A DNA stretch of 64,000 nt. Origin: Loxodes magnus. Lineage: Eukaryota; Ciliophora; Karyorelictea; Loxodida; Loxodidae. The stretch's first letter is position 1, and the number at the start of each line of letters is the position of its first letter. The stretch covers positions 248,001 to 312,000 of the forward strand of contig CAMPDV010000146.1 in the NCBI GenBank assembly GCA_946699065.1. The letters are read 5' to 3'. Shown piece after piece: positions 8,658 through 50,007 of the stretch. Under the pieces are notes generated by a model. It had not been told where the DNA came from. It was given only the letters and a program-made list of their open reading frames with translations, and did not search any database. A program made the position numbers and the translations under genes.

Positions 8658-9650
8658 ATGCTACTTTTCTTTCAAAAAATCTCTTCTGAACAGGATCCAT
8701 CCCAATCCAATTACGATTAGCAAAAATACTCTAAGAATTCAAAGCTATGTAATAGGAGAATTTTAAACTTTTAAGAAACGTACAAGAGTTTGAAGGAAAA
8801 ATCGCATACCTAATGTCTAACACATAAATACTAAAAAATTAAAATTTACAACCAGTCAATCTGAGAATTGAACAAATAGAATCTAAATTCAATCAATTAG
8901 CGGAACTGACTGAAATCTTATTTCTAAAAAATACATCAACAAATTACCTCATAGATGTAGAGCCAAATCCTCGAACAGCAAAAATTCCTTAGCAAAGAAT
9001 AGAGAGTAATGCTGGTATTGCAGGAAATATGATCACATTTTAAGATATTGAAAAAAACTCTAATAAAATAAAAACTTGAAAGCTTTAAGTTATGGAGATC
9101 CATAAGTAATCTATACTGCACTCCAGAAGGTTTATTATAAAAAAATAAATAGGGAGGAGCAGTCTAACTGCTAAGAACATAATCTGGTACCAGGAAGAAC
9201 CCCTTAGTTGAAGAACCAAAAAGAGGAGAGAAGATCGAAGAGGCATCAAGTAGTATTAATGATGAAAGATATCAGATACAAAGGTCTCTTGGGGTAGCAT
9301 TCCAATCGCCGCCCTATAGAAGACAAATTCACAAGGATGTGCTAGCACTACGGAAGATTTAGCAAGGAATTTTTTTAACTTAAAGTATCTTTATTAAAAA
9401 ACGCATCATTATGCGCTTTATAATCTCATTTATTTATACAGAAAAAAGATATACATGAGAGATGATGAAGGACATCGCATTTGCATAATAAAGAATAAAT
9501 TTGAATATGTTTGGAATCGAACTTGATTGAAGCAAGATGCCCGTAATTAAAAAGAATGAACGGAGTACTACAAGATATGTCAAAGAAGACTCAGAAGAAG
9601 ATTGAAAATGGAATAAAACTTAATACAATTTTAAACTTTAAACTTTTTTA
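8658..9650 (+). pseudogene. CWYC-family element interrupted by a nested short element (left arm)
   Basis: Starts M-L-L-F-F-Q-K-I-S-S-E-Q-D, close to the intact element at 9872 (M-E-N-F-L-Q-K-T-S-S-Q-K-D). The knuckle near 9,010 reads C-W-Y-C-R-K-Y-D-H with Trp as TGG, then L-W-R-S-I-S-N-L-Y-C-T-P-E-G. A short LLGG element follows at 9,130-9,435, after which the frame resumes with R-K-K-I-Y-M-R and ends E-E-D-[TGA]-K-W. Two or more frameshifts make it non-functional. Its 3' end has a hairpin (GTGGT...GCCAC, about 9,655-9,690). The same nested arrangement is in the right arm, so insertion predates the duplication. Confidence 0.65.
9130..9435 (+). mobile_element. Short LLGG/HH-type element nested in the CWYC element
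   Basis: About 305 bases, less AT-rich than its surroundings, splitting the E-G-L-L / R-K-K-I-Y block of the host element. It ends with a degenerate hairpin (ACGCATCATTATGCGC region, 9,400-9,425) and a TTTATTTATA tail, like the other hairpin-tailed elements here. Mirrored at 58,080-58,390. Confidence 0.6.
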
Positions 9651-9865
9651 TTAGTGGTAAACCAAATAAAAGTGACGCCACGTTAATATATTATGCTATG
9701 TTACGTTATATTTTTTTAGCATAACATATGCTTTTCTTCAATTATTTATACTCCTTGATTGATTTAATAAAATAAATGATGAACTCATAGCAAACTAAAA
9801 AAGGTATAAATATTTTTAATTTGGTAATAAGTTATTAAAATTAAAGTTATTAAATTCTATATATA

Positions 9866-10617
9866 GAAAAAATGGAAAATTTCTTGTAAAAAACCTCTTC
9901 TCAAAAGGATTCATCTTACGAGCAATAAAATATATTTTAAGCACTCCAATTGCTGTAATAAGAAAATTTCAACCTCCTAAGAACAGTTCAAGAACTAGAA
10001 AGAGAAATAGAGCACCTGATGTACAGTTAATAAGAATAAATGAAAAATGAAAATAAATAGACAGGAAACAACAAAATAGAAAAGCTAGAGAAAAAATTCG
10101 ACTAATTCGCAGAACTAGCTGAAAGCATATTTTTGCAAAATATACAGGGGAATGATCCTATGGATGTGGAGAAACAGCCTGCAATAAAAGATATTCCCTA
10201 TAGGAAAATACTGCGATGCTGATACTGCAAGAGACCAGGACACAAAGTTAGAAACTGCTTCTAATTCCAATAAAAACAGAAAGCAGAAAATTTAAAGCTA
10301 TGAAGAACCATAAGTAAACTATATTGCACTGCGGAAGGAAGAATTTATAGAAGAAAGATGTACGCAGGGCATGAAATTCTAGAAGACGTGATTATAGCAG
10401 GACAAAGAAGAAATGAACAAATGCTTGGAATGAAGATTGATTGAAGCAAGATTACGAAAATAAAAAAGGGAGAACTCAGCACAGATAGATATGTGCTTCA
10501 AGAAGAAGACCCAGAAGAATACTGGAAATGGAAATTTTAACAAAATTATTAAACTTTAAAAAGTGACGAACCTTATTGATAGGTGGGATCACTATAATTA
10601 ATTAATTATTATTATAT
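9866..10617 (+). mobile_element. Complete CWYC-family element, present only in the left arm
   Basis: About 750 bases inserted at a site that is uninterrupted in the right arm (empty site near 57,560). The flanking sequence TTCTATATA...ATTATTTTAAA is continuous there. Target duplication is short and A/T-only (about TATATA), so its exact length is ambiguous. The element holds one intact ORF, then a 3' hairpin (AGTGA...TCACT with an inner ACCT/AGGT stem, about 10,562-10,594) and an AATTAATTAATTATTATT tail. ORF1, hairpin, A/T tail and target duplication together resemble a non-LTR, target-primed insertion. Confidence 0.8.
9872..10579 (+). CDS. Intact CWYC-family Gag-like protein, 235 aa
   Basis: The best-preserved member. 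ATG 9872, TGA 10577-10579, one frame. Residues about 20-100 are Gln/Glu/Leu-rich and predicted coiled coil. Residues about 117-130 form a perfect C-x2-C-x4-H-x4-C knuckle (C-[TGA]-Y-C-K-R-P-G-H-K-V-R-N-C). Then L-[TGA]-R-T-I-S-K-L-Y-C, G-R-I-Y-R-R-K-M-Y, and a C-terminal I-D-[TGA]-S-K-I ... E-E-Y-W-K-W-K. At the first two TGA positions and at the E-E-x-W position sister copies carry TGG where this one has TGA or the reverse, which fixes TGA as Trp. Inferred role: RNA chaperone-like ORF1 binding the element's own transcript. No enzymatic domain. Confidence 0.8.
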
Positions 10618-10876
10618 AATTATTTTAAATTATTTATATCTATAATATTTATGACTGATTTGATGTCTCAAACTATTTATTTTGATTAAAAACAACAATT
10701 TGATATATTAATTTTAGATAATCTAATTAAATAATTTTATTTTCTTATTCTTTAAAATATTAATTTTTCTATTTCTTAATTCTAAATCTTTTTCTTTAAT
10801 ATAGCTCACATTTAATTTTTAATGAAACTATTAATTTGTAACAAAAAAGTAAGATGTAATAAAAAGGGAATTTAAG

Positions 10877-11350
10877 ATGAAAGTCTAAACAATAATTTTG
10901 GAGAGGAAATAGAGCCTTGAATATGTTACTTGATATTCAATTCTTAAATCTTGCTAAGATTTATTAATATATTTAGTATTTACTAATAGTTAAAAACTCT
11001 AAGTAAAAGTACCAATACTGATTTTCTCATGCCACCATTCTCGAACTTGGATTGCTTGGTATATTGCAAAAAGGTATGAAGAGGTTTCGAAGTTATGCTA
11101 GAAATCTTTGCAAATGCTGAAAAAAATGCTAACTTATAGGTATAGGATCTGTAAGTATCCTTAATTAAAAAATGTGTCTTTCTTTGTAAAATTTTATTGA
11201 AATTCAGAACCAAGGAGAAGCTAACAAGACTCAAATTGAGAACTTAACAAGATAGAACATTTTTTTAAAACGCTTATATATCTTATGGTGCAATGTGATC
11301 AATTAAAGAACTTATAAAACAAAAAATATTTTTCTCTAGGTTGACCTAAT
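10877..11350 (+). pseudogene. HH-family gene, IR1 left copy (broken)
   Basis: Left-arm sister of the 158-aa gene at 56,829-57,305. The ATG (10877) and first part match (M-K-V-Q-T-I-I-L), but the E-N-L-L-H-H-R block of the right copy has been mutated (a few bases lost near 11,115-11,145) and the frame shifts. Confidence 0.5.
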
Positions 11351-11639
11351 AATGGTAGAGCCATGTAAATTAACTTATTTATGGATTTATGAATTTAATT
11401 AGATTTTATCAAAATTAAAAAAATATTTTAAAATAAAATGTAGAAAATTATTTTTGATAAAGAATAAAAATATTAGTATATCTTAATTTTTATAATTTTT
11501 AGATTTAAATAATTTTTAATTATTATAAACAGTTTTTGCAATAAATTAAAGTTAAAATTAATTTTAAGGAAAATGATTTAAAAGTTATAAATTAGATTAA
11601 ATGAAGTTATAAGAAGGATAGAGTTATTTCATATATCAA

Positions 11640-12430
11640 ATGCTATTTTATATAGTTTATATCTTTATTTTTTGATTTTTCACTTTTCTTTGATATATCT
11701 TGTTGTATTAAGTTTTGAAAGTTACTAGCATTTTTTCTTATTTGTCTACATATATTACATTTCTCCAGCCTTGCTAATTTTTAAATATGAATCATTTAGG
11801 CTTTTTATTTGTGTATAGCACTATTTATGATAGCTCTATGTTTTAAAATTGCTTTCTTTTATATAGTTTCTTATGGAAGATTGATCAGCTTTTATTTTTT
11901 CTAGTCTTCTTTAAGTAAATGCAATTTTTAACTAAATATCTTATTTTCTTGTAATACCAGCATTTCTTAAGTCTCTTTTGCTATTTAGTTTAATTGGGAT
12001 TTATGTTTCAATTTTAATGTATCTCTTAGATAACTTTAGCAACCTATTAATTTACTTTCTTTTGGAGTTTAAGCATATAGATAATCAGGTTGAATATTTT
12101 ATTGTTGAGATCTTTAATTTGCAGTTCTTATCTCTAATTTTAGATAGATATTTTTTGATTCTCAGATTACATTCTATAAAATCGTTTAAAATAGTTAATC
12201 TAATTTATTCTGAGAATAGAGTATATCAGTGGTACTTAGTTTTCTATTTAATTGCTTAGAATATTTAATCTAATTATTACTCTTTTATTTTATTTTCAGT
12301 CGATTTAGATAATATCTTTAATATTATATTTTTTTAACCTATATAGGAAATTGCTTATAAACCTTTGCCATTTCTTTTAGTCTTCTTATTACTAAATTGG
12401 TAGATTCTTGCTTGAAATAAAATTTTATTA
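11640..12430 (-). pseudogene. Decayed CWYC-family element
   Basis: On the minus strand near 11,970 is K-C-W-Y-Y-K-K-I-R-Y-L-V-K-N-C, a knuckle with Cys2 and His changed to Tyr and Trp written TGG. Downstream: L-Y-K-R-K and K-P-K-W-F. The N-terminal part is Asn/Leu-rich without a clear start. The TGG here, against TGA in sister copies, is one of the code tests. Confidence 0.5.
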
Positions 12431-12861
12431 TGGATTTATTTTGCATATACGTAAAAAGATGGCGATCTCAGAAAGAGATTTTTACCGCTTTAAGGAAATA
12501 GGAATCTTATAACCAACAACAATATTAGAAAAACATAGGAATCTAAAAACCACTCTTATCTGCTCTTAGATATGAAAAGTTTTTAATATTTGTAAAATTT
12601 AAATGGATTATTTCTGTTTTCTTTTATTAATTGAGAAAATTTTGAAAAACTTACATTTCCAATTTTATAATTTTTATTGCTTCAAAATTGTTTTTACTTC
12701 CTTGTTTGATTATACTACAAATAATTTAATATTCCAATAAATTCCCACCTTTCTTACTTATTTCATTTACCTATTTTCAAAGATTTAAACCGTTCTTTAT
12801 ATATTTGGTTTTTCTATCTAAACTTTTAAAATAATAATAATTACAAAATTTTTAAAAAGAG
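12431..12861. other. AT-rich stretch
   Basis: No gene or motif recognised. Confidence 0.35.
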
Positions 12862-13920
12862 GACATAGCATCTTATTGGCGCACAACTCTATCAAAAGTT
12901 TTTTTTAAAAACATCTCTTAAGCTTATTTCTTTAAATACAGTTCAAGTTTGCAGTTTAAACTTATTCTGGTATTAAGAGTTCTTGAACTTGGCCAATCCT
13001 TAATCAGGAAATCTTCCAGATAAATTGGATTCTTTTACTAAAATGAATCCTTTATAATTGCTCTTTTTTTTTTGGCCTCAGTTAACTTCTAAGCAATTTC
13101 CAAGGAAAGAATTTACTATCTTATTTAAATTATTATATGAAATACTAATAATAAACTAATTATAGTGGCTCTACCAATATTAAATTAACCAATTTTAAGT
13201 TCACTTGCATTTGCTTTTATAAAATTTCTACTGCTTCCTTTGAAATTGCTCAAATAATTTTTTTTTCCTTTTTTTCTTCGCCTCAATCTTCATCTTGCTC
13301 TGAGTTTTTATTCTCTTCTTCCTCTTTGATTATCCCGCATTCTTTAGTTCCTTCAAACATTTTTCAATATTGTAATATCTGTTTCCTTTATAGATTAAAA
13401 GCATTTTTAGTTCTTAATAGAGTTTCCTTCTATAGATTTTACCTTCTGTTAAACAATATTTATAGCTTCAATTATGCCCATAGTCTTTTTCCTCTATTAT
13501 CTTCTTTATTTGAACTTCTAAAATAGTCTTAAGATATTTCCTTTCTTCTTGATATACTTATCCGATTATATATATAAATTATTTTTTTATTTTTTCAATG
13601 TCCATAAGATCTCCGTTATTTTATTTTTATTGGACTATCAATTAAATCTATAAAATATACTGATTGTGTCTCATTCTATTCATTTTAGTTGCAAATTTAC
13701 CTATTCCACTTCCAATTTGCTGCATATTTCCTTTTTTAATTTATTATTTCTTGCTAAATATTCACCACTGTGTAATACAAGGTATTAAGTATTTCGCTTA
13801 ATTTCAGAACTTAAGATTTTAAGATCTGATTCTCCAAAAGCAGTTGCTATATATGTAAAATAGTTCACAGTTATGGTTGCTTATTTTTTTGAAGAAGAAG
13901 TTTAATTCAGTTTATTATAT
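12862..13920 (-). pseudogene. CWYC-family element ending in the H1 hairpin
   Basis: Minus strand near 13,460 gives Y-K-Y-C-L-T-E-G-K-I-Y-R-R-K-L-Y, the block that follows the knuckle in this family. Upstream is coiled-coil-like (L-K-K-E-I-C-S-K-L). The knuckle itself is degraded. The 3' end at 12,862-12,896 is the H1 hairpin (AGAGTTGTGCGCC...GATGCTATGTCCTCT), the tail otherwise seen on LLGG elements. This is the clearest case of a CWYC element carrying that tail. Confidence 0.5.
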
Positions 13921-13924
13921 ATTA

Positions 13925-14290: not shown

Positions 14291-14349
14291 TTTATTTATA
14301 TATAATACTAGTTTTAAGTTTGGCATTTTAGTAGAAATTTAAATCTTTT

Positions 14350-15166: not shown

Positions 15167-15479
15167 GTTCCTTATATATTTGTTGAATCTTTTAAGATTC
15201 ATAACCAAATTCATGATAAAATTTATATTTACTTAAGTATAAAAGTTGACATTTTTTTTAATTTCTCTATCATTTTTAAAATTTACTTACTCATTATTTC
15301 AAAAAAACTCTCTCTCAAATAATCTTACTTTTTTACTTTTCTTCTAAACTTAATTTACTTTTAACTACTATAGAAACCAATCTTGCTCTTTATAATGATA
15401 ATATTTTATAATAAAAATGAATTATAGTAAATCTATCTTTCAAATAGATTCATCACTGTAAAGTTTATTACTTTATTGA

Positions 15480-16140
15480 AATGATCTATTTCCAGTCTTC
15501 TTCAAGATCATCTTCTTTTAATACATAACTGGCCATACTGCATTAACTCTTTTTAAAAAAAGGTATCTTGCTTCAGTCGAATTCAATTCTAATCATATTA
15601 TAGTTTCTTCTTTATTGACCTTGAGCAATTTCTATCAGATTTCATTCCCTTTGTACATAATTCCCAATATAATAGCCCTTCTGGAGAGTAATATAGATAA
15701 GTGAATGATTATTGTAAATTTAAATTTTCATTTTATTCATTTCGTTTGAAGTTTTAGCAGTATCTAAACGTATGTCCAAATATCCTACAATATCAGCATT
15801 GTTTTTTCTCTTATATAAGTAAATATTTTCTGGTTGATCTTTAGGTTCTAAATCATCGGATCATTCATCAACATATTAAAAAAGATATATTTTCAGTCAG
15901 CTCTACAAATTAGTTGAACTTAGTTTCTAATTATTCGATTCTTATCTTGCTGTAGGATTTTAATTTTTTTATTCTTATGTGATAACCATCAGGTAGAAAT
16001 ATTTCCTTAAAGCTTTATACATTCTTAAATTTTGGAATTCTCCTATTGCATAACTTTGAGTTCATAAAGTATATTTTGGTAATAATAATTTGATTGGGAT
16101 TGATTGTGTTTAAAAGAGATTTTTGCAATAAATGTTCACT
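15480..16140 (-). pseudogene. CWYC-family element with perfect knuckle but shifted frames
   Basis: The minus-strand knuckle near 15,780 is complete: C-[TGA]-Y-C-R-I-F-G-H-T-F-R-Y-C. It is followed by L-Y-Y-S-P-E-G-L-L and a C-terminal F-D-[TGA]-S-K-I ... L-E-E-D-W-K matching the intact element at 9872. N-terminal and C-terminal parts lie in different frames, so at least two indels separate it from function. Confidence 0.6.
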
Positions 16141-16425
16141 TTTCTTTTGAATATAATATATAGTAAATATTAGAATTATTGAAAGTATTATAAGTCTAAA
16201 TACTCATCTAGAGTATTTTAGTACTATAACTATTTATAATATCTATATTTAAATTCTTTCTTTTGTTTACTGTAAAGTATACTTCATTAATATTTATATA
16301 TATCGTTTGAAATGCAAACTGATTAGGTAAAAAAGAAATAAAGCTAATTTATTTAATGAACAAATTAATAAAAGAATCAATAATCTTTATAGCATGGTAA
16401 ACATTTAAAAAGGCTTACAAATAAA

Positions 16426-22455: not shown

Positions 22456-24168
22456 TCATTTCTTGACAAATAAAAATTCGATATATTCCATGTTCTCTTG
22501 CATTCATTGATTATATAACTTTTATAAAGAAAAGAAGCAACAAAATATTCTTGAACTTGATTCGTATTCTACAAATGGGCCTCCTAAGGGAGTTCAAACT
22601 TAAGATCGACGATTTGAACTCAAAAACTTATTGTGATGCTTATATTAATGTCATCATATATTATATAAACTAATACTTAAAGGATAAAATTCTGCAAAGA
22701 TGGTGACATAATAAGGTTTTTCATTTTTTATTCAATTTAAAAAATCTATTCATAATTGAAAATTTTTATCTTTATTTGTTCTATCAAGATTTTTAGGAAA
22801 CATTATGGTTATATTTGAGTATTTACTTCAAAAACTATACCATTTCTCAAATTTTTCTTTCGCGTAGAATTATCTATTGTCTTAATAGAATAGATTTGGC
22901 TGTAAAGGTTCTTCAAAATGTACTTGCTTTTTTATTACATCAATCTCTTATTTCATCTATTCTAATTTTTAGCTTGATTATTTAGCTTCTAATCATTTAT
23001 TTTTCTACTTCTCATAAACTATAAGTCACTCCGGCATTTCCTAATAATTTCTATATTAATTTGGATTTCAATAAATGAATATTTCTAGCTCAAAAGAGTA
23101 ATTAAATGTTTGTATGAATGAGCTATTTCAATATAATTCAAAAAACACAATTGAAGTATTCTAGTTATCTTTTAAAATTTCTAAATCAACTAATAATTGT
23201 GAAATTCTATCTCTATCATCTGGAATTTTAAATTAAGAAACTTCAAATAAAGTTGATTGTATGAGTAAGACAAATTACAGAATCATAAAAGCGAATAAAT
23301 AAGCGTATAGTATGTTTATTTATTTATCTGCTTTGAATAGTGTTTTTTGCTTATAAATAGATTTTATATTTCATTATCTATAATATTTCAATTATATTTA
23401 TTTAAGATTTTCAACAATTAGCCTTGCTGATGGTCTGTTTGCTGGCTCTATACTTAAACATGAATATAAATCCCTATTTATTTCTTACTAGTAAGAAGGA
23501 GGATTTTCTTATTTTTCAGATAATAAAAGATTAGCTATTTTACCAAAGCTGTAAATGTCTACTTTATCAGTTGGTTTATAATTTTATTAATTTAGCTCAG
23601 GTACTTCTCATCCTTCAGTTCATGTTATTTATCGATTTGTACCTTAAAAATCGGTAGAATTCTCAAAATCACAAATCCTAGCATTATAATTATCATCAAG
23701 TAGGATAGACTAAGGCGTAAGATTTTAATGAATAATTTACCTTTTATGTATATATTTAAGTCCTTAAGCTATATCAATTAATATCTATAATTTTAGTTTA
23801 TTTTTCATTTCATCGTCAGTAATTTTATTAATCTCCTCTATGCATTTATATAAAGATCCTTTTCTTTTAAATGGGAAAATAAGATATAGTTCACCTTAGT
23901 CATAGCAGAATCCTTAAAATAGTAGAATATTATCATGATTAAGTTTTGAGTGGTTTACTAATTAAGGTATTGAGTTTTCTATTTTATCTTCTTAAATTAT
24001 TTTAATGGCAAAATCTTATCCATATATTTTACCTTTATAGACTTCACCACTTTCTCCTTCTCCTATTTTTTCTTGAATATTAAGTTATTAAAAGGAGAAT
24101 TCTTTGAGCAATCCAAGTTAATTTAATTGTCTAGGTATATTAATCTCTTAAAGTTAATTGGTAGTCAT
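22456..24168 (-). CDS. Membrane-anchored pseudokinase-like protein, paralogue A, 570 aa
   Basis: ATG 24168, TGA 22456-22458 after Lys-Lys; exact multiple of three, no break. Residues about 35-300 are a protein-kinase fold: Gly loop G-E-G-E-S-G-E-V, D-F-A-I-K-I-I with the ATP-binding Lys, I-L-I-D-I-A-Q-G-L-K-Y-I-H-K, then H-Q-N-L-T-P-Q-S-I-L instead of H-R-D-L-K-P-x-N-I-L, and C-D-F-E instead of D-F-G. The catalytic Asp is Asn and the Mg-binding motif is incomplete, so it is probably catalytically dead. V-P-E-L and V-D-I-Y-S-F-G are kept. After the kinase come a hydrophobic stretch (Y-A-Y-L-F-A-F-M-I-L) and a Trp-rich C-terminal domain (E-L-Y-W-N; F-E-L-E-x-F-I-Y-W-N; P-E-W-L; W-T-P-L-G-G-P). 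Many of the Trp codons are TGA. Confidence 0.85.
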
Positions 24169-27560: not shown

Positions 27561-27610
27561 TATTAATTAGCTTCTTAAATTTTTATAGACTGATAAAATT
27601 AAGATTTAAT

Positions 27611-29668
27611 ATGATTAAAAAATATGAATAATAAATGTATAGCTAAATCTATGATGAAGTTATAATATAATCTATATTTAAGAATAAATAAAACGTATCT
27701 AAAAGTAAAATTTCTTACTAAATATGAGTAAATAAATTAAATATTTATAGAATTCCTTTATTTTAGTTTATATGCTATATTAATAGTTTAGACACTTAAA
27801 ATTAATATCTAAATGCTTTATTTAAAGTAAAGTTCTAATTTAAAGTTTTCGCTTCATTTCTTTTCTCTTTATTTGCTGAATAAAAAATCAATAAAGTCTT
27901 TATTTTTTTCCCACCATTAACTCAACAAATTATATTTAGCAAAACAACAAAAATCCGAAGAACTTGATTCTCATTTTACTATCGGTCCTCCAATTGGCGT
28001 TCAAACTTAATAAACTCGATTGGAATATAAAAATTTACTATGGTGTTATCATTAATGTCACATATCTTCATAGAAGGGAATTTATTAACCTTCTAATTCC
28101 CAAAAACTTGTTCGATAATAAAATTTTTTATTTTGAAGTTAATTATAAAAGTCATGCTTCCATTAAAATGATTTATCTCAATTTCTTCCATTTAATAACT
28201 GAGGGAACTCTAATGTTATGTTTGAATACTTATTTCATAATTAGTAGTATTTCTCAAATTTTATTTTAACTATATTTTCGTCGGGATTTGGATCAAACGG
28301 ATTTGGTTTTACTTCTTCATAGAAACCAATTTACTTCTTAATGTTTTATAACTCTTTTTCTTCTTTATTTAGTTATGCATCAGTTTAAGAGTAACTTAAC
28401 CATTTGTTTTTCTGCTCATTATAGACTTATAGTCATTTAGGAATATCTCCTTAGTTTTTATAAAAATCAGCATTTCAATAAATGGACATTTCTAGTTCAA
28501 AAGAAGTTGAAATAGTTTATAAGTTCTAGTTATTTCAGTTAAACTCAAACAAAACTAGAGAAACATTTTATTAGTCTAAAATCCCTAAATTTTGGATTAG
28601 TTAATAAGTACTATTTTTATCATTTCCATTCTTAAATTTAGTTTTATTATTTACAATTGAAAGAGTAAGAAGAATCTAAAACAAAACCATGCAAGAAAAT
28701 AGCTGAGCATATCAGAATCTAATCGCTTTATTTTATTTAGGTTTCTTTCTTTTATTCTTATGAGATTTAATATTTCATTAACCATATTTCTATTTGTATA
28801 TTTCTTTTAAGTTTACTACTATTTTTCTTGCTGTGAGTCTAATGTCTGCATTTTCACTCAAGCAAAGCCTTAAAATGTCATTTATTTATTATAGGAAGAA
28901 AGAGGAGTTTTCTTATGATTCAGAGAATAAAAGCTAACCTATTTATCCAAAATTATAAACATCTACTTTTTCAGTTGGTTAGTAATTTTGATTATTTATC
29001 TCAGGTGATAATAATTCTTCAGCTATTTAAGCTTTTCTATCTTTTAAATTTATAGAATCTGAAAAATTACATAACCTAGCATTAAAGTTATTATCAAATA
29101 AGATATTTTATGGATGAAGGTTTTGATGAATAATGAAATGCTTGTGCAAGTACTTGAGTCCTTTAGCTATATCTACTAAAATTCCAAGCTTAATTTTATT
29201 TTTTCTTTCATTATCCTAAATACTATTGATTTCATTAATGCATTTATCTAAAGATCCTTTACTTTAAAAAGGAAAAATTAGATATAGTTTATTTTCAGAA
29301 AAGCAGAATCCGTTAAATAAAAGAATATTAGAGTGATTAAGAATAGCTTGCTTTTCTAGACTTCTCAAATATTCTTAAACTTATAAATCTTTTATTACTT
29401 TTATAGCAAAGTCTTGTCCTTTTATCCTACTTTAGTATACTTTGCTATTTTGTCCTTCTCCAATTACATTTTCTTCCTTAATATAAAAATCATCAGTAGA
29501 AAATTCTTAAAGAACGCCAAGATTAACCAGTTTTCTTAAATTACTGATATCTACTTACTAGCTGCTTTACATTATAATAATTTGCTTAATTCTGCTAGTT
29601 AAAGTTAATTACTAAGAAAATATAAAATAAAATTATTTTTTATTTTAAAAGTAATATCAATATTATTT
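27611..29668. repeat. Inverted repeat IR2, left arm
   Basis: Reverse complement of 47,950-50,007, almost identical over about 2.06 kb with constant coordinate sum 77,618 through the gene. The inner edge breaks sharply at 27,611/50,007; the outer edge fades over tens of bases near 29,670/47,950. The repeat covers one whole pseudokinase gene and little else. Confidence 0.9.
27854..29572 (-). CDS. Pseudokinase-like protein, paralogue C, IR2 left copy, 572 aa
   Basis: Mirror copy of 48,046-49,764 with the same length, start (M-Q-S-S-Q-Q-V-D) and TGA stop (27,854-27,856). Domain details are given under the right copy. Both copies are complete, so this family is currently duplicated rather than decaying. 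Confidence 0.85.
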
Positions 29669-29679
29669 TATCTACATAC

Positions 29680-32600
29680 TGCTATTTTTATTTAAGCTGC
29701 TTTATTATTATTTGTATAATCTAAAAAGTGTTTTTTAATATGAAAGATTTCATAAACATTTTTAATTTTATTTTATTTATGAAGTTTGACAATATATTCA
29801 TTTTAGAAACCTTTCAAAAAAAATTTAAAATTTGAAATTGTTAAATGTATTGAAGAATTTTAAAGTTAAGTCAGAGCAATTAACTTAAAAACTGCAAGAG
29901 AAAATGCTGTTATAATAAGTTATAGCATAACAAGGGACTATAAATGCTGCTAAAAATTTTAAAGTATAAGAAAAAATAAAAAACTGTTTGAATGCTTATA
30001 TAGAAACATTTTAGATAATTAAAGTAAAAATAAAATTTAAATTAAAAAAATGTAATTAATATATAGTAAAATTGTTTTTATTTAAAAAAGATAATCAAAA
30101 TTATAAAATTTTGTTTAGAATCAATCAAGATGAGAAAAGAAACTCTGAATTTTGTATATAAAATTTAGAAAAAATGCCATATTAAATGTCTGAAATTGTT
30201 TAATTCATTTAATTATTCTAAATTTTCAAAATTTATGATTATTTATTTATCAGATATAATTAAAAATTTTTGGTATTTGTAATACTAAAATAGCAAAATT
30301 AAAATACTTAAATTTTTTGTTAATTTATAGTAATTAAAATTAAAAATTATTAATTCAATAAAAAAAGATCACATAGAATATGATCTATTAAAATTTGTTA
30401 TTTAAAATTTTATTTTCATTTAATATATTTAAAAAAATTTCTAAAAAAAGAAATCTCAATTTAATTAAGCAAGGAAATTTTAATTAATATGTTTTTTCAA
30501 TTTTAAGATTTATTATTCAAATGAACAAAATCTAAAGCAAACTATTATTTTTTAATAGCACTTTTTCATTTAGCAACTCTAATAAATTTTATATTTCAAA
30601 AAATCTAAAATATAAAAAAAAATGCAAAGCGTTGACAGAGTGGGTTTTTATCAAAAAAATAGTAAAATTTAAATTCATTTATGTTTATTTATTATTTTTT
30701 TATTACATTTTAGGATTTGAATTTATGAGATATCTTATTTAGTAGTTAAGTCATTTTCATTTTTTTAGAATATTATAACTTTGCATTTTTATCTAATTAA
30801 ATATTAAATATAAATTTTTCCGTAAAAATTTTAATTTTTTAACTTCACTTTTTAAAAATTGACTCCATCTATTTAATTAATAGTAAAATAATATTTTGAG
30901 ATTAGTTTTAGCTAATTAAACTATATAGAAAGCTTATTTCTTTTTAATTTTTTTAAAATGAATATTTAAAAAATAATTATATTTAACTTATACTTAAAAA
31001 TATTAATTAACTTAATTTTACTTATAGTATATGTAAAGAATAATTTAATAATTAATTTATGCATTAAAATAGTTATATTGTAAAAAAAATATCAAATAGA
31101 AATGGAAATGCTATTTAATTTTTCAATGTTTAAAAATTAAATTCAAAAGTTAATTAATTGTTTTGCTTTTTATCTTCATTAAACGAAATTAAAAATTTAA
31201 ATAAAAAATAATTTATAGATTGTTTAATTTATATTTTAAAAACAAAATTAAAAATTTTAAATTAAATTAAAATAAAATAAAATATATCAAGGAAAAGAAA
31301 AATATGTCTTCAATAAATTTCCAGCCCCTGAGTAACCTATAGATCCCCGAGTTCCCTAATTTATGGTCTTTTCAATTCTAGGGCTATGCTACTTTCAATT
31401 ACTGAACTTATTCAATATCTTACTATCACTTGATGGATAAAAAAGTTTTTAACTATTTTAAAATTTACTTTTAACTTCCAAATTTAATTGCAACTTTCCA
31501 GAAATGTTATGTACTTTAAAGAAATAATTCTTTCAGATTTTTTTTTGTTTAAATTATCCTTATTTACATTGTGATTGATTTATTTTCTCTTATTATTGCT
31601 ATTTATCTTTTATTTTAAAAATATGAAATTTGAAAGATTTAAACTTTTTAATCTTACTTTTTAGTTAAAATATTTTTAATATAATTGCTACATTAGTTTT
31701 GATATTATATTATAAAATTATCCTTTTTTATATTTGTCTTTGAGTAAATAAAACGAGAAAGATAAAAATTAATTTAATTAAAAAATAAAAATCTTATTCT
31801 ATTAAAATTATAGATATTAAAAAATTAAGGCAACATTAATTATATTATAAATTAATTTGGCTAAAATTTAATTTATATATATGTTAAACTTTTAATTAGA
31901 TTCTAAATGTTTTAATTAAAAATAATTTTTTTAATTCATTTTTTAACTTTATTTATGTGAAAAATAAAATTAAAATTCTCAAATTATTTTCTTCATTCAT
32001 ATTACCAATCATTATTAGCAGAAAAATTAAAACTCAAACTGATTAATATAATTTCAAATAAGTTTCTAAACTGATAATCTGGCTTAAAAGTGTTGCTATT
32101 ACTAAAAAAATTATCTACGGTTATTCTTTTGAATATAATTCTTTAAAATATCAAATTAATTTAAATTTCTTTTTGTTTTGAATTTTTATTTAAAATATTT
32201 TTATATTTTGCTTTAATTTTTAAATCTTTTATAAATTCTTATTTTAACTTTTTTTACTTAATTATATAAAAACAAGATCTTATGAAAATATTTGCAAAAT
32301 TATTTCAAATCTTATATAAAATCTTTTATTCAGCATCATTTTTTTAATTTTGTTTGCAGAAAAATTTTTTTATTAAAGATTTTTTAAAGCTAGCTTATTT
32401 TTTATTTTATTAATTAACTCAACTTTTAAAATTTGTTTTTAACTATTAAAATTTTATTTTCTACTATTTTAAAATTTAATTCTCTTTGGCATATAAAACA
32501 ATATGAATAAATCATACTTTCAAAATATTTTACATTATATCAAAAAACTCTAAAATTTATGAGACTTTTAACAAAAATCCAAAATAAGCAGAAAATGTAA

Positions 32601-34222: not shown

Positions 34223-35146
34223 TCACCTATTAAAGAATGTACACATTTTATCAAAAGTTTATCTTACAACTCTTCTTCTTTCCCTTCTTTTCTTCTTCTT
34301 CTCCTCTCTTCCTCTTTATACCAACCTCCATTTTTTATTTTACTTTCTTCCATCACTTATAATTTCTTTCATAATTAATTTTTATTTCATAATTAATAAA
34401 TTAAAAATAATATTTTTGTTTTATTCAAAATGCTTTAAATTCATCTTCTTCTTCTTTTCACTTCTTATTTTCACTCTTCGATACCACTATTCCAATTCCT
34501 TCACCTTTCTTATCTTCGTATAAGATATATCCAAACTTCTTAATGTTCTTGGATACTCACTTACAAATCCTTCTTATGTTATCTTCTGATTCTAACTCAC
34601 ATCCAATTTTACTAACTTCTTACACTTTCTCATTATTTCTACTATATCATCATTTTCCAAATTACATGCAATCAATCTCAACTCTCTTATTTCTTTCATA
34701 TTCACTATCTCTTCTATCATGTCTTTAATTGAACTCCAACTATATGTAAAACTCTATACCTCACTACTCATTACTTATAACGTCTATCTACTCACTTCTC
34801 TCATTGAATTCAATTCTATCTTTCTCAACTTCCTACAATTCATAAATATATTATTCAAACTTTCATTTCTTATTTAATTCATGTACCCTAATGTCAACTA
34901 TACATAATTTCCTCCATATCTTCCTATTTACTCTACTGCTTCACTTTTCACTTTTAATTATATTAAACCCAATTTTCTCAACTATAAACTATTTTATAAT
35001 AACGATAATAAATTTTACTCACCAAATCCTTCACTTCCATTTATCTCTACATGCTCTAATCTATCAAAATATCTATTCCAAAAATTACTCCATCCTTTAC
35101 TATCTTAATCTCTCATTCTCAAATACTTCAAACTATATCTCTTCAT
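34223..35146 (-). CDS. Leucine-rich-repeat protein, 307 aa to first TGA
   Basis: ATG 35146; open to TGA 34,223-34,225. Repeats of about 24-28 residues carry Leu/Ile consensus: L-E-H-V-E-I-N; L-R-K-L-G-L-I-Q; L-R-K-I-E-L-N-S; I-R-E-L-R-L-I-A-C-N-L; L-V-K-L-D-V-S-Q-N-Q-K-I-T; L-R-S-L-D-I-S-Y-T-K-I. The C-x-K-L-x-K-L-D-V-S pattern is like cysteine-containing (F-box/AMN1-type) LRRs; no F-box is seen. The C-terminus is strongly Lys/Arg/Glu-rich. The coding strand is exceptionally purine-rich and prefers TTG, AAG, GAG and GTG where neighbours use TTA, AAA and GAA, so it differs in composition from all other genes here. Likely a protein-binding scaffold. Coding signal continues past the first TGA, so the 3' end is open to question. 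Confidence 0.75.
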
Positions 35147-35219
35147 CTTTTCTTTTTTTAATGTTTTTTTATTTTTTTTACCTTTGATTTAACTATTTCT
35201 TTACTTGTTTTTATTTTTT

Positions 35220-35516
35220 TTATTTTTTTTAATATTATTTTTAATGTCTTTCTTTCCTTTTTTCTCTTTTTCTGTACTTCCTTTTAATTTTTCCTTTCAA
35301 AGTTTAGGATGTAATATGCGATTACTTCTTCTTTTATCCGATTTATGATGATGATAGTTTCATCCTGGCATTCAGATTTTTCCAGCTTGTCACATCTTCC
35401 TTCATTTTTCATTGGTTTCTCTTCCTCCGATTATCTTCCTTCCGCGTTCATTTTTTGTTGCCTTGCTGGGTTTCCAAGCTGCATCCGAAGGAATAAGCTT
35501 TCCACCTTGATTAAAT
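35220..35516 (-). mobile_element. LLGG/HH-type short element, tail missing
   Basis: Head (GGTGGAAAGC) at about 35,515 and body to about 35,220 match the element at 45,346-45,695: D-K-L-E-K-S-E-C-Q, E-V-I-A-Y-Y-I-L and the S-E-E-E-K-P-M block. The H1 hairpin expected at its 3' end is absent next to the LRR gene, so it is 3' truncated or was cut there. It ends about 75 bases from the LRR start codon. Confidence 0.55.
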
Positions 35517-42445: not shown

Positions 42446-42449
42446 TCCA

Positions 42450-43090: not shown

Positions 43091-43094
43091 AAAA

Positions 43095-44816
43095 TCACTT
43101 TATATTTTCTTTGCTTTGAAAAAAGAAATCTAAGTACTCAAAATTACTTTTAATCCATTATTCTCACATAATAGATTTAGCAAAACAGCAAAAATCTCTA
43201 TTACTTGATGAAAATTAAAAAATTGGTCCACCTACTGGTATTCAAACTTGATGATACCGATTACTATTTAATAGTTAGTTATGATATTTTCATTAGTGTC
43301 ATTCTTCATAAAAATAAGGAATTTAAAAACTCTAAATTTCTTAGAAATTTGTATCGTAGTACTATCTTTAGTTTGTCCACATTTTTTTAAAATCTTTAAA
43401 ATATTCAATTCCTCTGCTTCATTTTGTATTATCATAAAGAGTAGGAAAATTGATGCTTTTCTTTGTATATTTTGATCATACTTAATATCATTTTTAAAAT
43501 TTTTACTCTGTAACTCAATAATTTTCATTATTATAAAAAAGATTTGGTAATATTCTTCCTCAAAACTTAGTCTAATTTTTTATTTCATCTATTTCTTTTT
43601 TTAATTATGCTAACTATAAACTTGATTATTTGGCTTATTATCATTTATTTTTCTCTTACTAAAATACTTTAAGTCATTCCGGCATTTCCTGTTAATTTTT
43701 ATATTAATCCGGATTTCAATAAATAAACGTTTCTAACTCGAAAGAGAAATCGAATGTTTATAAGTATTTTTTATTTCAATAAAATTCAAAAATAACCAAT
43801 GAAACATTTTCATTATCTTTTAAAATGTTCAAATCAATTAATATATTATTAACTTTCTCTACATTGTTTCCATTTTTAAAATTATCTGGATCATATAAAG
43901 TTGAGTGGAATAAAAAGAAAATTTATAAAATCATAAAAGATAGCAGCTGTGCATAACAGAATTAAATTGCTCTATTATCTAATTATATTTTTTTGTTCCT
44001 TCAGATTAATTTTATATTTCATTACTTATAATATTTTTTATATATCTATTAAAGATTTATAACAATTAATCTTGCTGAAGGTCTATTTTCTGGTTCTATA
44101 CTTAAACATGAATGTAAATCCCTATTTATTTCTTACTAGTAAGAAGGAGAATTTTCTTATTTTTCAGATAATAAATGATTAGCTATTTTACCAAAGCTGT
44201 AAATGTCTACTTTATCAGTTGGTTGATAATTTTATTAATTTATCTCAGGTGCTGATCATCCATCAGTTCATGTTATTTATCGATTTGTACCTTAAAAATC
44301 GGTAGAACTATCAAAATCACAAATCCTAGCATTATAATTATCATCAAGTAGGATAGACTAAGGCGTAAGATTTTAATGAATAATTTACCTTTTATGTATA
44401 TATTTAAGTCCTTTAGCTATATCAATTAATATCTATAATTTTAGTTTATTTTTCATTTCATCGTCAGTAATTTTATTAATCTCCTCTATGCATTTATATA
44501 AAAATCCTTTTCTTTGAAATGGGAAAATAAGATATAGTTTACCTTAGTCATAGCAGAATCCTTAAAATAGTAGAATATTATCATGATTAAGTTTTGAGTA
44601 TTTTATTAGTTAAGGTATGGATTCTTTAATTTTATCTCCTTAAATTATTTTAATGGCAAAATCTTATCCATATATTCTACCTTTATAGACTTTACCACTT
44701 TCTCCTTCTCCTATTTTTTCTTGAATATTAAGTTATTAAAAGGAAAATTCTTTGAGCAATCCAAGTTTCTTTAATTGTCTGAGTTTATTAATCTCTTAAA
44801 GTTAATTACTAGTCAT
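43095..44816 (-). CDS. Pseudokinase-like protein, paralogue B, 573 aa
   Basis: ATG 44816, TGA 43,095-43,097, exact multiple of three. Very close to paralogue A over the kinase region (G-E-G-E-S-G-K-V; D-F-A-I-K-I-I; H-Q-N-L-T-P-Q-S-I-L; C-D-F-D-S; T-D-G-[TGA]-S-A-P-E), more diverged after it. H-R-D is again H-Q-N, so the catalytic base is missing. The hydrophobic segment is L-I-L-L-C-T-A-A-I-F. The Trp-rich domain keeps F-E-L-E-T-F-I-Y-[TGA]-N, P-E-[TGA]-L, I-P-V-G-G-P and F-C-C-F-A-K. A and B lie 20 kb apart in the same orientation and share long nucleotide identity in the kinase half, consistent with duplication or gene conversion. Confidence 0.85.
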
Positions 44817-45049
44817 ATATAAAAATAAAGTAATTTAATAAATAAAGAAAGTTTATAGGATAAATAAGTATAGCTTTTACATTTTTAAATATGTAAATAT
44901 AGTTTAAATAATCTAATGAAATATATATAATATCTTACAAAACTAAATTTATAGATTTTGCTAAATATAAATATTCCCATTTTTCTAATATATCAGGAAG
45001 TTATTTTTTAGTAAATCCTTTAAATTAATACTTTATACTTTGCTTTATT

Positions 45050-45345
45050 TCAATGCTTTCTATCTTTTTACTCAAATTATATTGCTTAAAAGAAAGACAC
45101 CTTGTTGTGACAAGTCAATCCTCTTTCTTTAATGATGTAAGAGGGAAAGAAAGACATATCGTAGAAAAATGTTTAGAATACAAAGAAAGAAGATAAATAT
45201 GTATTTGAAATTTAAAAGCTATAGGAATAGAGAAATCATTTATGGAACTATTGATATAATATGAGTTACGGCCAAATTATAGAAATTTATTAGAATCTAA
45301 GAAGAGTAAAAAAGAACTAAAGCTGACTTTATAAATAAATTGGGT
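45050..45345 (+). pseudogene. CWYC-family fragment interrupted by a short element
   Basis: K-T-P-C-C-D-K-S-I-L-F-L-Q-[TGA]-C, a knuckle with His replaced by Leu, then K-T-Y-R-R-K-M-F, the usual following block, and I-I-[TGA]-V-T-A-K. The frame is cut at about 45,346 by a minus-strand LLGG element. Confidence 0.5.
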
Positions 45346-45695
45346 ACTAGAGCGCATAGCACTCTCGTTGGCGCGCAGCTCTTTAAATTAATTTTATTTA
45401 ATGTCATAAAAATTTTTTATAGCTCTTTCTTTCCTTGTTTCCTCTTCCTGCGGTACGTCCCTGTAATTTTTCCTTCCAAAGCATAGGATGTAATATGCGA
45501 TTACTGCTACATTTCTCCGACTTATGATGAAGAAAGTTCCCTCCTGGCATTCAGAGTTCTCCAGCTTGTCACATCTTCCTTCTCTTGTCATTGGTTTCTC
45601 TTCCTCCGATTTATCCTCCTTCCGCACTCATTTTTTGTTGCCTTGCTGTACCTCCAAGCAGCATCCGAAGGAAAAAGTTTTCCACCTTATTTAAA
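45346..45695 (-). mobile_element. LLGG/HH-type short element with H1 tail
   Basis: H1 hairpin at 45,349-45,383 (3' end), body and head up to about 45,695 (GGTGGAAAACTTTTTCC). Inserted in a CWYC element, parallel to the nesting at 9.1-9.4 kb. Head frame: M-L-L-G-G-T-A-R-Q-Q-K ... N-F-L-H-H-K-S-E-K. Confidence 0.65.
45394..45627 (-). CDS. LLGG-element internal ORF, 77 aa
   Basis: Uninterrupted frame without any TAA/TAG/TGA inside: M-R-K-E-D-K-S-E-E-E-K-P, C-D-K-L-E-N-S-E-C-Q, V-I-A-Y-Y-I-L-C-F-G-R-K-N-Y-R-D-V. The V-I-A-Y-Y block is conserved at 14.1 and 35.3 kb. It is in a different frame from the M-L-L-G-G head and HH block, so either this copy is frameshifted or the element uses two frames. 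Confidence 0.45.
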   Translation of the reverse strand: MRKEDKSEEEKPMTREGRCDKLENSECQEGTFFIISRRNVAVIAYYILCFGRKNYRDVPQEEETRKERAIKNFYDIK

Positions 45696-45959
45696 TTATA
45701 TTATAATAAAAGATTATATCAAAGATATACTAGAAAAAAGGATACATAGAAAAGAAAATTTAATGAAAAAATGAAATAAGAAAATGATAATTTTTGTGAG
45801 TTTATAATAGCTTGAATAAGAAGAAAATAATTTGAAACGAAAATTAGAAAGATATGTAAGAAAAAATAAAGGAAACTTGCAATAAAGATCTAATAAAACG
45901 TAGATAGATAGAAGTCAGAAGAACAAGAGATAATGAAAAGAAAAATGATGAAGATATAT

Positions 45960-46070
45960 AACTAATAAGGGAAGAATTTCTATTAGTTGGAGGCTTACTT
46001 GAAGAAACAGACATATATTGAGATATGGAAAGAGCTGCGCACCAACGAGGTGCTACATGCTCTATAATAA
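45960..46070 (+). mobile_element. Truncated element with H1 hairpin
   Basis: Only the last part remains: the hairpin AGAGCTGCGCACCAACGAGG ... TGCTACATGCTCT at 46,031-46,062 and an A/T tail. 5' truncation is typical of target-primed retroelements. Confidence 0.55.
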
Positions 46071-46099
46071 AATTAATTAATTTATTATTACATAGAGTT

Positions 46100-46280
46100 A
46101 GTTTATTTTAATTTCAAAGTTGTTTTTTTGCTGAATTTTTTTCTATACTGCATCCTATAGTTTTTTCTCAGTCTATAAAGAATAAACATCAATCAATGTA
46201 TCTATTATTAATCAAAAAATTTATTTTAGGTGAATTGCATCTTAGGTTCCTTTTTTATTTGCCAATAATATCAATCATTA
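46100..46280 (-). pseudogene. 5' fragment of a MAPKM-subtype CWYC element
   Basis: Aligns on the minus strand with the start of the copy at 18,038 (E-P-K-M-Q-F-T) and with 39.96-40.13 kb. Nothing downstream of the first 50 codons remains. Confidence 0.4.
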
Positions 46281-46369
46281 TTAGGTGCATAAAAAATTCT
46301 GAATACAAAAAGAAAATTGCAACATGAAATAATTTTAATTTAAATAAACTTAAAAAATTCAACAATAAA

Positions 46370-47400
46370 TGAAAAAATTTATTAAGAGATCAAGATTTTG
46401 AACTTACAGAAGTCATTAAGTACAATACATAGTATCCTCGCAAGAAGTTAATTTTAAGGATTTATCTTCTTCGCTTTATCTGTAGGCAATACCAAGCCAC
46501 AATTGACTGAAATCCCAGCACAGATATTGAGAAAGTTTAAACTTAATCGTCCTTATCGAACTCATCTTCCCGAAAAGATAAAAAGGTACGATCATGAAAC
46601 TATCTAAAGAGCTCAAGTAGTCTAAAAATAAAAAGGATTTAGGCTTCATGTGCCATTTCCCTTTAGTGATATATTTAACTATAAATTAAAAGTTTTAAAA
46701 ATAAAAAGATAGATAGTTTTTATTTTGCGATATGAATATTTATTATAACATTACATAATAAATTAAACTGGTTTCATCATTATTAGATTAACCACTATTT
46801 TAACTGTTCAATAATGTTAAAGAGGATGCATTTTGTGAAAATAGAGTCATGGCAAGTTACATCTCTCAAGGCTATCAAGGCCTCTAGTCACATATCACTC
46901 CAAGTCAGATTCCAAGACAAATAATCATTAAACCAAAGGCCATTCCATTCTAGATTCATAGATCAGCCAAAGAAGAGGGAGAAATAATCGATTATAGATA
47001 CTTAACTTCCTGAATCAAGAATGAAGATATCGTTTACTTCACCTTCCAATTAATGGCTTAAGTTCCTGCGGAGTTTCCTCCCACTATAGCAAGCTAAATC
47101 TTAGGGATCTCCATAATAATTTTGACAAAAAATATTAGAGACAAATTAGAAAAGGAATATCCAAGATTCAAAAATAGTAAATAAAGGAAATTGAAGCAAT
47201 ACCTTAAAAACCACATTATAAACTGAAGCATTTAATCAAAAGATAATTTGCGGAATTATTTTAATTCTGTGTTACAAAAAGAACTTCTGATTTTTTTAAA
47301 CTGATTTAATTGAATTTCTAGCATTTTAGTAAAAAAAATGTATTTTAAGAAGAAATAAAACTATTGTAAAGTATTAATGAAAAACTATAATAACACTTCA
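46370..47400. repeat. Inverted repeat IR3, right arm
   Basis: Reverse-complement partner of 440-1,510; see there. Confidence 0.75.
46849..47330 (+). pseudogene. Unknown gene, IR3 right copy, frameshifted
   Basis: From ATG 46849 a frame reads M-A-S-Y-I-S-Q-G-Y-Q, then I-D-Y-R-Y-L-T-S-[TGA]-I-K-N-E-D and F-T-F-Q-L-M-A. Compared with 547-1071 the original start is CTG, and single-base deletions near 46,940 and 46,975 throw the first and second halves into different frames. The frame stays open, so a shortened product cannot be excluded. Confidence 0.45.
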
Positions 47401-47409
47401 TTGATTGAA

Positions 47410-47945
47410 ATTCTATTAATACTTGAACTACAAGAGAAAGATTAAAAAGATTCAGAAGCCTGTAATTAGCTAAATTAAATTTATCTTTTCAATGAATCAG
47501 AGATAAAAAATCTGAACTGCTAAATAGCATTGAGTAAAATAATTTAAAATAGATATAGTATTAAATTTTATAGCATAAAAAGAGTAGTAAAAATAACTTT
47601 ACAAAAAAGTAATTTAAATTTATATAATTAATAAAACATAATAAAATAAAGAAAAACTAAAAATATTAAATAAACTATCGTAAACTATTTTAGCATGATA
47701 TAAATATTTATTATAATTTATTTAAAAGTAAACATATTTAATTTATATATTCTATTATTTTTATCATTATAAAAACAGAAATGCATAAAACTAGAAATTA
47801 AAAAATAAGTGCATAAAGAATAAAATATTTTCTAAATATTAATATCAATTAAGCTTCATGTATAAAGGTATTAAAACTATTAAAAAATAGATTAAAATTA
47901 ATAAAATTAAAAAAGATATAAATGATAATATAATAGCATAGTTAA
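47410..47945. other. AT-rich stretch before IR2 right arm
   Basis: A/T-rich, no gene seen. Confidence 0.45.
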
Positions 47946-47949
47946 TAAT

Positions 47950-50007
47950 AGATAGTATTGATATTACTTTTAAAATAAAAAATCCTTTTATTTTATATTT
48001 TCTTAGTAATTAACTTTAACTAGCAGAGTTAAGCAAATTATTATAATGTAAAGCAGCTAGTAAGTAGATATCAGTAATTTAAGAAAACTGGTTAATCTTG
48101 GTGTTCTTTAAGAATTTTCTACTGATGATTTTTATATTAAGGAAGAAAATGTAATTGGAGAAGGACAAAATAGCAAAGTATACTAAAGTAGGATAAAAGG
48201 ACAAGACTTTGCTATAAAAGTAATAAAAGATTTATAAGTTTAAGAATATTTGAGAAGTCTAGAAAAGCAAGCTATTCTTAATCACTCTAATATTCTTTTA
48301 TTTAACGGATTCTGCTTTTCTGAAAATAAACTATATCTAATTTTTCCTTTTTAAAGTAAAGGATCTTTAGATAAATGCATTAATGAAATCAATAGTATTT
48401 AGGATAATGAAAGAAAAAATAAAATTAAGCTTGGAATTTTAGTAGATATAGCTAAAGGACTCAAGTACTTGCACAAGCATTTCATTATTCATCAAAACCT
48501 TCATCCATAAAATATCTTATTTGATAATAACTTTAATGCTAGGTTATGTAATTTTTCAGATTCTATAAATTTAAAAGATAGAAAAGCTTAAATAGCTGAA
48601 GAATTATTATCACCTGAGATAAATAATCAAAATTACTAACCAACTGAAAAAGTAGATGTTTATAATTTTGGATAAATAGGTTAGCTTTTATTCTCTGAAT
48701 CATAAGAAAACTCCTCTTTCTTCCTATAATAAATAAATGACATTTTAAGGCTTTGCTTGAGTGAAAATGCAGACATTAGACCCACAGCAAGAAAAATAGT
48801 AGTAAACTTAAAAGAAATATACAAATAGAAATATGGTTAATGAAATATTAAATCTCATAAGAATAAAAGAAATAAACCTAAATAAAATAAAGCGATTAGA
48901 TTCTGATATGCTCAGCTATTTTCTTACATGGTTTTGTTTTAGATTCTTCTTACTCTTTCAATTGTATATAATAAAACTAAATTTAAGAATGGAAATGATC
49001 AAAATAGAACTTACTAACTAATCCAAAATTTAGGGGTTTTAGACTAATAAAATGTTTCTCTAGTTTTGTTTGAGTTTAACTGAAATAACTAGAACTTATA
49101 AACTATTTCAACTTCTTTTGAACTAGAAATGTCCATTTATTGAAATGCTGATTTTTATAAAAACTAAGGAGATATTCCTAAATGACTATAAGTCTATAAT
49201 GAGCAGAAAAACAAATGGTTAAGTTACTCTTAAACTGATGCATAACTAAATAAAGAAGAAAAAGAGTTATAAAACATTAAGAAGTAAATTGGTTTCTATG
49301 AAGAAGTAAAACCAAATCCGTTTGATCCAAATCCTGACGAAAATATAGTTAAAATAAAATTTAAGAAATACTACTAATTATGAAATAAGTATTCAAACAT
49401 AACATTAGAGTTCCCTCAGTTATTAAATGGAAGAAATTGAGATAAATCATTTTAATGGAAGCATGACTTTTATAATTAACTTCAAAATAAAAAATTTTAT
49501 TATCGAACAAGTTTTTGGGAATTAGAAGGTTAATAAATTCCCTTCTATGAAGATATGTGACATTAATGATAACACCATAGTAAATTTTTATATTCCAATC
49601 GAGTTTATTAAGTTTGAACGCCAATTGGAGGACCGATAGTAAAATGAGAATCAAGTTCTTCGGATTTTTGTTGTTTTGCTAAATATAATTTGTTGAGTTA
49701 ATGGTGGGAAAAAAATAAAGACTTTATTGATGTTTTATTCAGCAAATAAAGAGAAAAGAAATGAAGCGAAAACTTTAAATTAGAACTTTACTTTAAATAA
49801 AGCATTTAGATATTAATTTTAAGTGTCTAAACTATTAATATAGCATATAAACTAAAATAAAGGAATTCTATAAATATTTAATTTATTTACTCATATTTAG
49901 TAAGAAATTTTACTTTTAGATACGTTTTATTTATTCTTAAATATAGATTATATTATAACTTCATCATAGATTTAGCTATACATTTATTATTCATATTTTT
50001 TAATCAT
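47950..50007. repeat. Inverted repeat IR2, right arm
   Basis: Reverse complement of 27,611-29,668. The junction at 50,007 is sharp (AAT-CAT shared, then divergent). Confidence 0.9.
48046..49764 (+). CDS. Membrane-anchored pseudokinase-like protein, paralogue C, IR2 right copy, 572 aa
   Basis: ATG 48046, TGA 49,762-49,764 after Lys-Lys, one frame of 573 codons. Residues about 36-260 form the kinase region: I-G-E-G-Q-N-S-K-V, D-F-A-I-K-V-I (ATP Lys at about 58), D-I-A-K-G-L-K-Y-L-H-K, then I-I-H-Q-N-L-H-P-Q-N-I-L (H-R-D Asp changed to Asn) and L-C-N-F-S-D (D-F-G lost, including its Asp), V-D-V-Y-N-F-G, R-P-T-A-R. More degenerate than A or B. Hydrophobic segment at about residues 285-305 (Q-L-F-S-Y-M-V-L-F-Q-I-L-L). 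C-terminal Trp-rich domain: F-E-F-N-[TGA]-N; F-E-L-E-M-S-I-Y-[TGA]-N; P-K-[TGA]-L; N-K-[TGG]-L where paralogues have N-K-[TGA]; P-I-G-G-P; F-C-C-F-A-K. Inferred: signalling or scaffold protein tethered to a membrane. Confidence 0.88.

Follow-up and report, generated by a model that had tools for sequence, protein, structure and literature searches.

UGA as tryptophan and as stop in a genome stretch of the ciliate Loxodes magnus, with tRNA-Trp arrays and uneven use of UGA across genes

The stretch analyzed here (the window) comprises 64,000 nucleotides of Loxodes magnus DNA (contig CAMPDV010000146.1 of assembly GCA_946699065.1, positions 248,001 to 312,000; G000:C146:248001-312000) and harbors three paralogous genes for kinase-like proteins, designated pseudokinases A, B, and C, along with several copies of a zinc-knuckle sequence. 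The somatic, i.e., macronuclear (MAC), assembly of L. magnus has been described as 706 Mbp in size and assigned to NCBI genetic code table 27, in which UAA and UAG encode Gln and UGA encodes either Trp or stop (PMC11441545). The available text of that report gives UGA as the sole stop codon, which is nevertheless translated as Trp when it lies far enough from the poly-A tail, and presents transcript evidence for the code (PMC11441545). The genome searched in the present analysis consisted of 705,730,643 bases in 7843 contigs. An initial annotation, made from the letters of the window without knowledge of their source, had proposed that UGA is read as Trp and also used as stop, as in the code of karyorelicts (table 27) or of Condylostoma (table 28).

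Pseudokinase paralogues and the reading of TGA, TAA, and TAG

The pseudokinase genes of the window are as follows.

22456..24168, minus strand: pseudokinase A, with a kinase-like domain, a hydrophobic stretch, and a C-terminal domain; TGA:TGG inside 14:1; terminal TGA at 22456-22458; Pfam Pkinase 1.7e-32
43095..44816, minus strand: pseudokinase B; TGA:TGG inside 17:2; terminal TGA at 43095-43097; Pfam Pkinase 7.2e-34
48046..49764, plus strand: pseudokinase C; TGA:TGG inside 11:5; terminal TGA at 49762-49764; Pfam Pkinase 3.9e-25
27854..29572, minus strand: C', an inverted copy of C, 98% identical to it and hence not an independent witness; Pfam Pkinase 3.2e-24

C and C' lie in one of two inverted duplications of the window (27606-29740 and 47878-50012, 98% alike). 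By eye, the catalytic Asp was replaced by Asn and a second motif was altered at the sites that we take to be HRD and DFG, respectively, and "pseudokinase" is therefore a fair name for these proteins.

With TAA and TAG (TAR) read as Gln and TGA as Trp, A, B, and C were found to be collinear over 571, 574, and 573 codons, stop counted, and the alignment placed a homologous TGA at the end of all three. The alternation of TGA and TGG that had been claimed for two of their motifs was borne out, as N-K-W is written with TGA in A and B and with TGG in C, and Q-W with TGA in A and with TGG in B and C. A Trp codon occupied 57 of the 84 alignment cells facing a TGA (52 TGA, 5 TGG), a count in which TGA-TGA pairs enter twice and which corresponds to 31 of 58 distinct pairs; the remaining cells held Tyr (7), Leu (4), Lys (4), Phe (3), and others. 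TAA mostly faced Gln codons, Lys, Glu, and Asn, and also Phe, Leu, Tyr, and others, so the statement that all TAA and TAG fall at Gln-tolerant positions holds only roughly. The pairwise ratios of nonsynonymous to synonymous divergence (dN/dS) were 0.34 for A-C, 0.39 for B-C, and 0.57 for A-B, and the proteins are therefore under purifying selection. The synonymous divergence (dS) between A and B was 0.09 in the kinase part and 1.03 in the C-terminal part, a contrast that suggests gene conversion; A and B are therefore not fully independent of each other.

Many of the 136 kinase domains scored in a genome-wide search carried in-frame TGA, TAA, and TAG. For the 48 best-scoring of these domains, the three codons were masked in the alignment, and each was scored by the residues of the other domains in its column. 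The best residue for TGA (37 codons) was Trp, the column being a Trp column for 28 of the 30 codons in conserved columns. For both TAA (221 codons) and TAG (117 codons, 115 scored), Gln was the best residue and Lys the second. The scores of these domains agree with the codon meanings read in the window.

The ends of genes were examined in three families only, namely, actins, eRF1, and the pseudokinases A, B, and C. Among 96 actin-family matches in the genome, 30 near-identical loci were scored; all 30 ended in KCF-TGA, and together they contained 120 TGG, no internal TGA, and 297 in-frame TAR codons (89 TAA and 208 TAG). Dozens of such near-identical actin genes are spread over several contigs (L009-L038), and internal TGA was present in several other actin-family matches (four in the match on C15). 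TGA was found at every terminus examined (30/30 actins, eRF1, A, B, and C), and no terminus was TAA or TAG. Table 27 is favored over table 28 because all these termini are TGA; kinase domains, actin ends, and the eRF1 end are in agreement on this choice between the two codes initially proposed. The claim that the paralogues share a terminal TGA at corresponding sites stood for A, B, and C; in the zinc-knuckle copies the visible similarity stops near EExWK. The initial annotation had also named what would speak against its reading, i.e., conserved genes with TGA only at their ends or with TAA/TAG as stops; the kinases carried internal TGA, and no TAA or TAG end was observed in this small sample.

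Hence, there is little doubt that the window is a stretch of the L. magnus somatic genome whose genes use the published karyorelict code, with UAA and UAG as Gln, and UGA as Trp inside genes and as the only stop at their ends. Table 27 is the right reading of the window; it is already in print and not a new code, and its blind rediscovery from raw sequence is correct. In the available accounts of Loxodes magnus (PMC11441545) and Parduczia (PMC4967479), the karyorelict code has the same assignments, and no difference from them was found. The prediction that nearly all genes would escape standard annotation is fair for a standard-code pipeline; however, Pogigwasc, a gene predictor built for this code by the L. 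magnus genome authors, already exists according to the available text of their report (PMC11441545).

tRNA-Trp genes and eRF1

A search of the genome with a tRNA-Trp pattern, allowing up to 2 mismatches, gave 124 matches vs. 0 for the reversed control. The anticodon was CCA in all 100 of the 124 matches that were listed, though the pattern allowed UCA. The matches were grouped as follows.

G000:C67:482301-491183 (parts in L048-L071): tandem array of tRNA-Trp(CCA); 47 of the listed matches; period of ~187 bp; 27-43 pair A.C
G000:C148:155442-169685 (part in L113): tandem array of tRNA-Trp(CCA); 53 of the listed matches; period of ~241 bp; 27-43 pair U.C
G000:C110 (L112): separate tRNA-Trp gene with a full 5-bp anticodon stem

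The two array types differ at base 27, and in both the 27-43 pair is broken, leaving an anticodon stem of 4 bp; none of the 100 listed matches departs from these bases. In three segments of the C67 array, ARAGORN reported tRNA-Trp only, and in the window it reported no tRNA. A 4-bp-stem tRNA-Trp in Loxodes has already been reported, as far as the accessible parts of the two reports go (PMC13092985, PMC12005148). A literature search on tandem tRNA arrays in Loxodes returned nothing on the subject by title, and one on UGA in highly expressed genes of karyorelicts led to the Blastocrithidia account (PMC12153298); the two are weak ground for a claim of novelty.

It might be argued that the reader of UGA is a dedicated tRNA-Trp(UCA) and not this short-stem tRNA-Trp(CCA), as cognate tRNAs are given as the commonest answer to reassigned stops in the accessible part of PMC13092985. 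Such a tRNA is very unlikely here, given that the listed tRNA-Trp matches were all CCA under a pattern permitting UCA. A further search returned 138 matches, with six of UCA type among the 100 listed, and the five of these six that were run in ARAGORN yielded no tRNA. The available text on Condylostoma magnum likewise records that no UCA tRNA-Trp was found in that species (PMC4967479).

Three matches to PF03463 were present in the genome, two of which (L040 and L041) correspond to eRF1. The best-scoring match, L039, was set aside as a candidate for eRF1; it presumably represents a pelota-like protein. The eRF1 encoded at L041 (436 aa) aligned to human eRF1 (1dt9) over residues 9-430, followed by TGA. 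In the 1dt9 alignment, the NIKS motif is retained, and the changes are, in human numbering, Ser70Ala, Glu55Ala, Thr58Arg, Ser60Gln, and Tyr125Phe. A UCA tRNA-Trp or changes in eRF1 had been suggested as signs to look for; no UCA was present among the listed tRNA-Trp matches, and eRF1 showed Ser70Ala.

A close comparison in these parts is with Blastocrithidia, which, in the available text of PMC12153298, shares the 4-bp-stem tRNA-Trp(CCA) and an eRF1 altered at the residue numbered 70 in the human protein, Ser70Gly accompanying UGA readthrough there. The two systems differ in that Blastocrithidia uses UAR as Glu, UAA as stop, and Ser70Gly, whereas L. magnus uses UAR as Gln, UGA as stop, and Ser70Ala.

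Uneven use of UGA and alternative readings of internal TGA

In the 48 kinase domains, TGA accounted for 37 of 124 Trp codons (0.30, bootstrap 0.21-0.38), whereas A-ending codons made up 2582 of 3555 (0.73) in the six other purine-ending pairs (odds ratio 6.2, p = 3e-22). In pseudokinases A, B, and C, the TGA share (42/50, 0.84) was equal to the A-ending share (470/573, 0.82; p = 0.85). One actin and one eRF1 each had TGA at 0 of 4 Trp codons. The GC (guanine plus cytosine) content was 0.33 in the kinase set, which holds the best-scoring kinases, vs. 0.24 in the pseudokinases. The share of UGA in the kinases showed no rise with the A-ending share (0.26, 0.38, and 0.26 in successive thirds), and the base following coding TGA did not differ by eye from that following coding TGG. 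We read these figures as selection against UGA in conserved kinases and neutral interchange of UGA with UGG in the pseudokinases of the window. The alternation of TGA and TGG was unusually visible in the initial annotation because the genes read there had near-neutral use of UGA. Within one genome, UGA is thus unused for Trp in the one actin and one eRF1 counted, strongly depleted in the conserved kinases, and neutral in the pseudokinases. In Blastocrithidia, the reassigned codons are stated to be shunned in highly expressed genes, according to the available text (PMC12153298); "highly expressed" for actin is an assumption here.

Equality of the TGA share and the A-ending share in the pseudokinases is also what mutation alone would give, and it could be argued that internal TGA reflects pseudogene decay, with TGG turning into TGA under A+T pressure while UGA remains an ordinary stop. 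The zinc-knuckle copies, from which much of the alternation had been read, lend some weight to this argument.

9874..10581, plus strand: zinc-knuckle copy, all parts of which share a frame; CWYC (TGA at 10217) and EEYWKW (at 10514); no Pfam family at E<=0.01
8659..9621, plus strand: zinc-knuckle copy spread over three frames, a decayed repeat; TGA at a knuckle Cys position
15400..16100, minus strand: zinc-knuckle copy spread over two frames, by frame comparison
57600..59000 (approximate), minus strand: inverted duplicate of the 8.7-9.6 kb knuckle copy; TGA at a knuckle Cys position and opposite an Arg of the 9.0 kb copy

The codons claimed to alternate at the knuckle motifs were present: C-W-Y-C has TGG at 9010 (plus strand) and TGA at 10217 (plus), 15798 (minus), and 37346 (minus), and E-E-x-W-K has TGG at 10514 (plus) and 15503 (minus) and TGA at 9594 (plus). 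However, the motif at 11962 (minus strand) is C-W-Y-Y, with TGG, and of the two L-W-R codons, TGA near 10,300 and TGG at 9090-9098, the latter is out of frame with the 9010 knuckle. Among the three copies compared by frame, only that at 10.2 kb holds the N-terminal part, the knuckle, and EExWK in a single frame, and the 37.3 kb match is without the knuckle His and the third (last) Cys. The 9.0 kb copy and its duplicate at 58.5 kb carry a TGA opposite a Cys of the 10.2 and 15.8 kb copies. Owing to the mixed frames and to TGA at Cys and Arg positions, the knuckle copies were rejected as evidence on the code; changes from TGG to TGA in such decayed repeats prove little about it, and the copies are poor witnesses. 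Decay is possible for individual knuckle copies. As an account of internal TGA in general it is highly improbable, as the pseudokinases are open and collinear over ~570 codons with dN/dS below 1, conserved Trp columns hold TGA in the 48 top-scoring kinase domains, and the code has been published with transcript evidence, as given in the available text of PMC11441545.

As a separate observation, 3797-11337 and 56838-64000 form a large inverted duplication, in blocks 86-99% alike across several kb and extending up to the window edge, which may reflect either a genuine palindromic duplication or a fold-back introduced during assembly.

The Condylostoma code (table 28), with UAA, UAG, and UGA each both sense and stop, agrees with the karyorelict code in reading UAR as Gln and in letting position decide between Trp and stop at UGA (PMC4967479, available text) and would fit the presence of all three codons in frame, but it is scarcely credible for L. 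magnus, as UAA and UAG are stops in Condylostoma magnum and were at none of the ends examined here, where TGA alone was found, and UGA is the only stop given by the genome authors in the available text (PMC11441545).

Several points weigh against the karyorelict reading or narrow its basis. TAA and TAG point to Gln less sharply than TGA points to Trp, because Gln is rarely a conserved residue in kinase columns: in columns conserved at >=50%, TAA met Glu 16, Gly 8, and Lys 5 times out of 39, and TAG met Glu 11 and Lys 5 times out of 25. The CAA/CAG control behaved alike in conserved columns (Lys 11 and Glu 11 of 28). Termination at the end UGAs is deduced from homology and should be regarded as predicted. 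A part of the evidence in the initial annotation, i.e., the knuckle copies, is unreliable. The CCA anticodon was read among the 100 tRNA-Trp matches listed of 124, and the copy on C110 keeps the full 5-bp stem.

A possible mechanism and further features of the window

On the basis of the literature, UGA in the body of a message may be decoded by a near-cognate tRNA-Trp with a 4-bp stem, which would outcompete a weakened eRF1, and at a true stop, closeness to the mRNA 3' end would shift the balance toward eRF1. Nearness to the 3' end as the switch between stop and sense is taken from the available part of the published account (PMC11441545). With regard to the depletion of in-frame UGA shortly ahead of the true stop that belongs to table 27, the closest TGA upstream of the stop lay at -16, -23, and -39 codons in A, B, and C, respectively (three genes only). 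Candidate parts for such a mechanism in L. magnus would be the arrayed tRNA-Trp(CCA) with the broken 27-43 pair and the eRF1 with Ala for Ser70.

Internal UGA is probably costly, because it is depleted in the conserved kinases and missing from the eRF1 and the actins analyzed, yet freely used in the pseudokinases. The uneven use of UGA points to a way of measuring, gene by gene, what an ambiguous stop costs, and the tRNA-Trp arrays suggest that gene dosage may be a part of the mechanism. It is conceivable, though on balance rather unlikely, that the ambiguity of UGA is partly set by such dosage, with short-stem tRNA-Trp arrays of at least 100 genes outcompeting the Ser70Ala eRF1, the cost being paid as UGA is purged from genes that are highly expressed or under strong constraint, and the UGA share (0/120 in the 30 near-identical actins, 30% in conserved kinases, and 84% in the pseudokinases) gauging the cost for each gene.

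Open-frame length was tried and rejected as evidence, since the window holds 308 frames of >=120 codons with TAR as sense and openness alone is uninformative. When the window was scanned for genes by codon score, seven weak segments were returned, one of which lay on the knuckle copy at 10.2 kb; the pseudokinases went undetected, we think through the differing composition of the kinases used for training. The region at 34-36 kb is strongly C-skewed (GC skew -0.47) and contains leucine-rich-repeat matches at 34223-35296 on the minus strand, which are weak and lie under the Pfam cut-offs.

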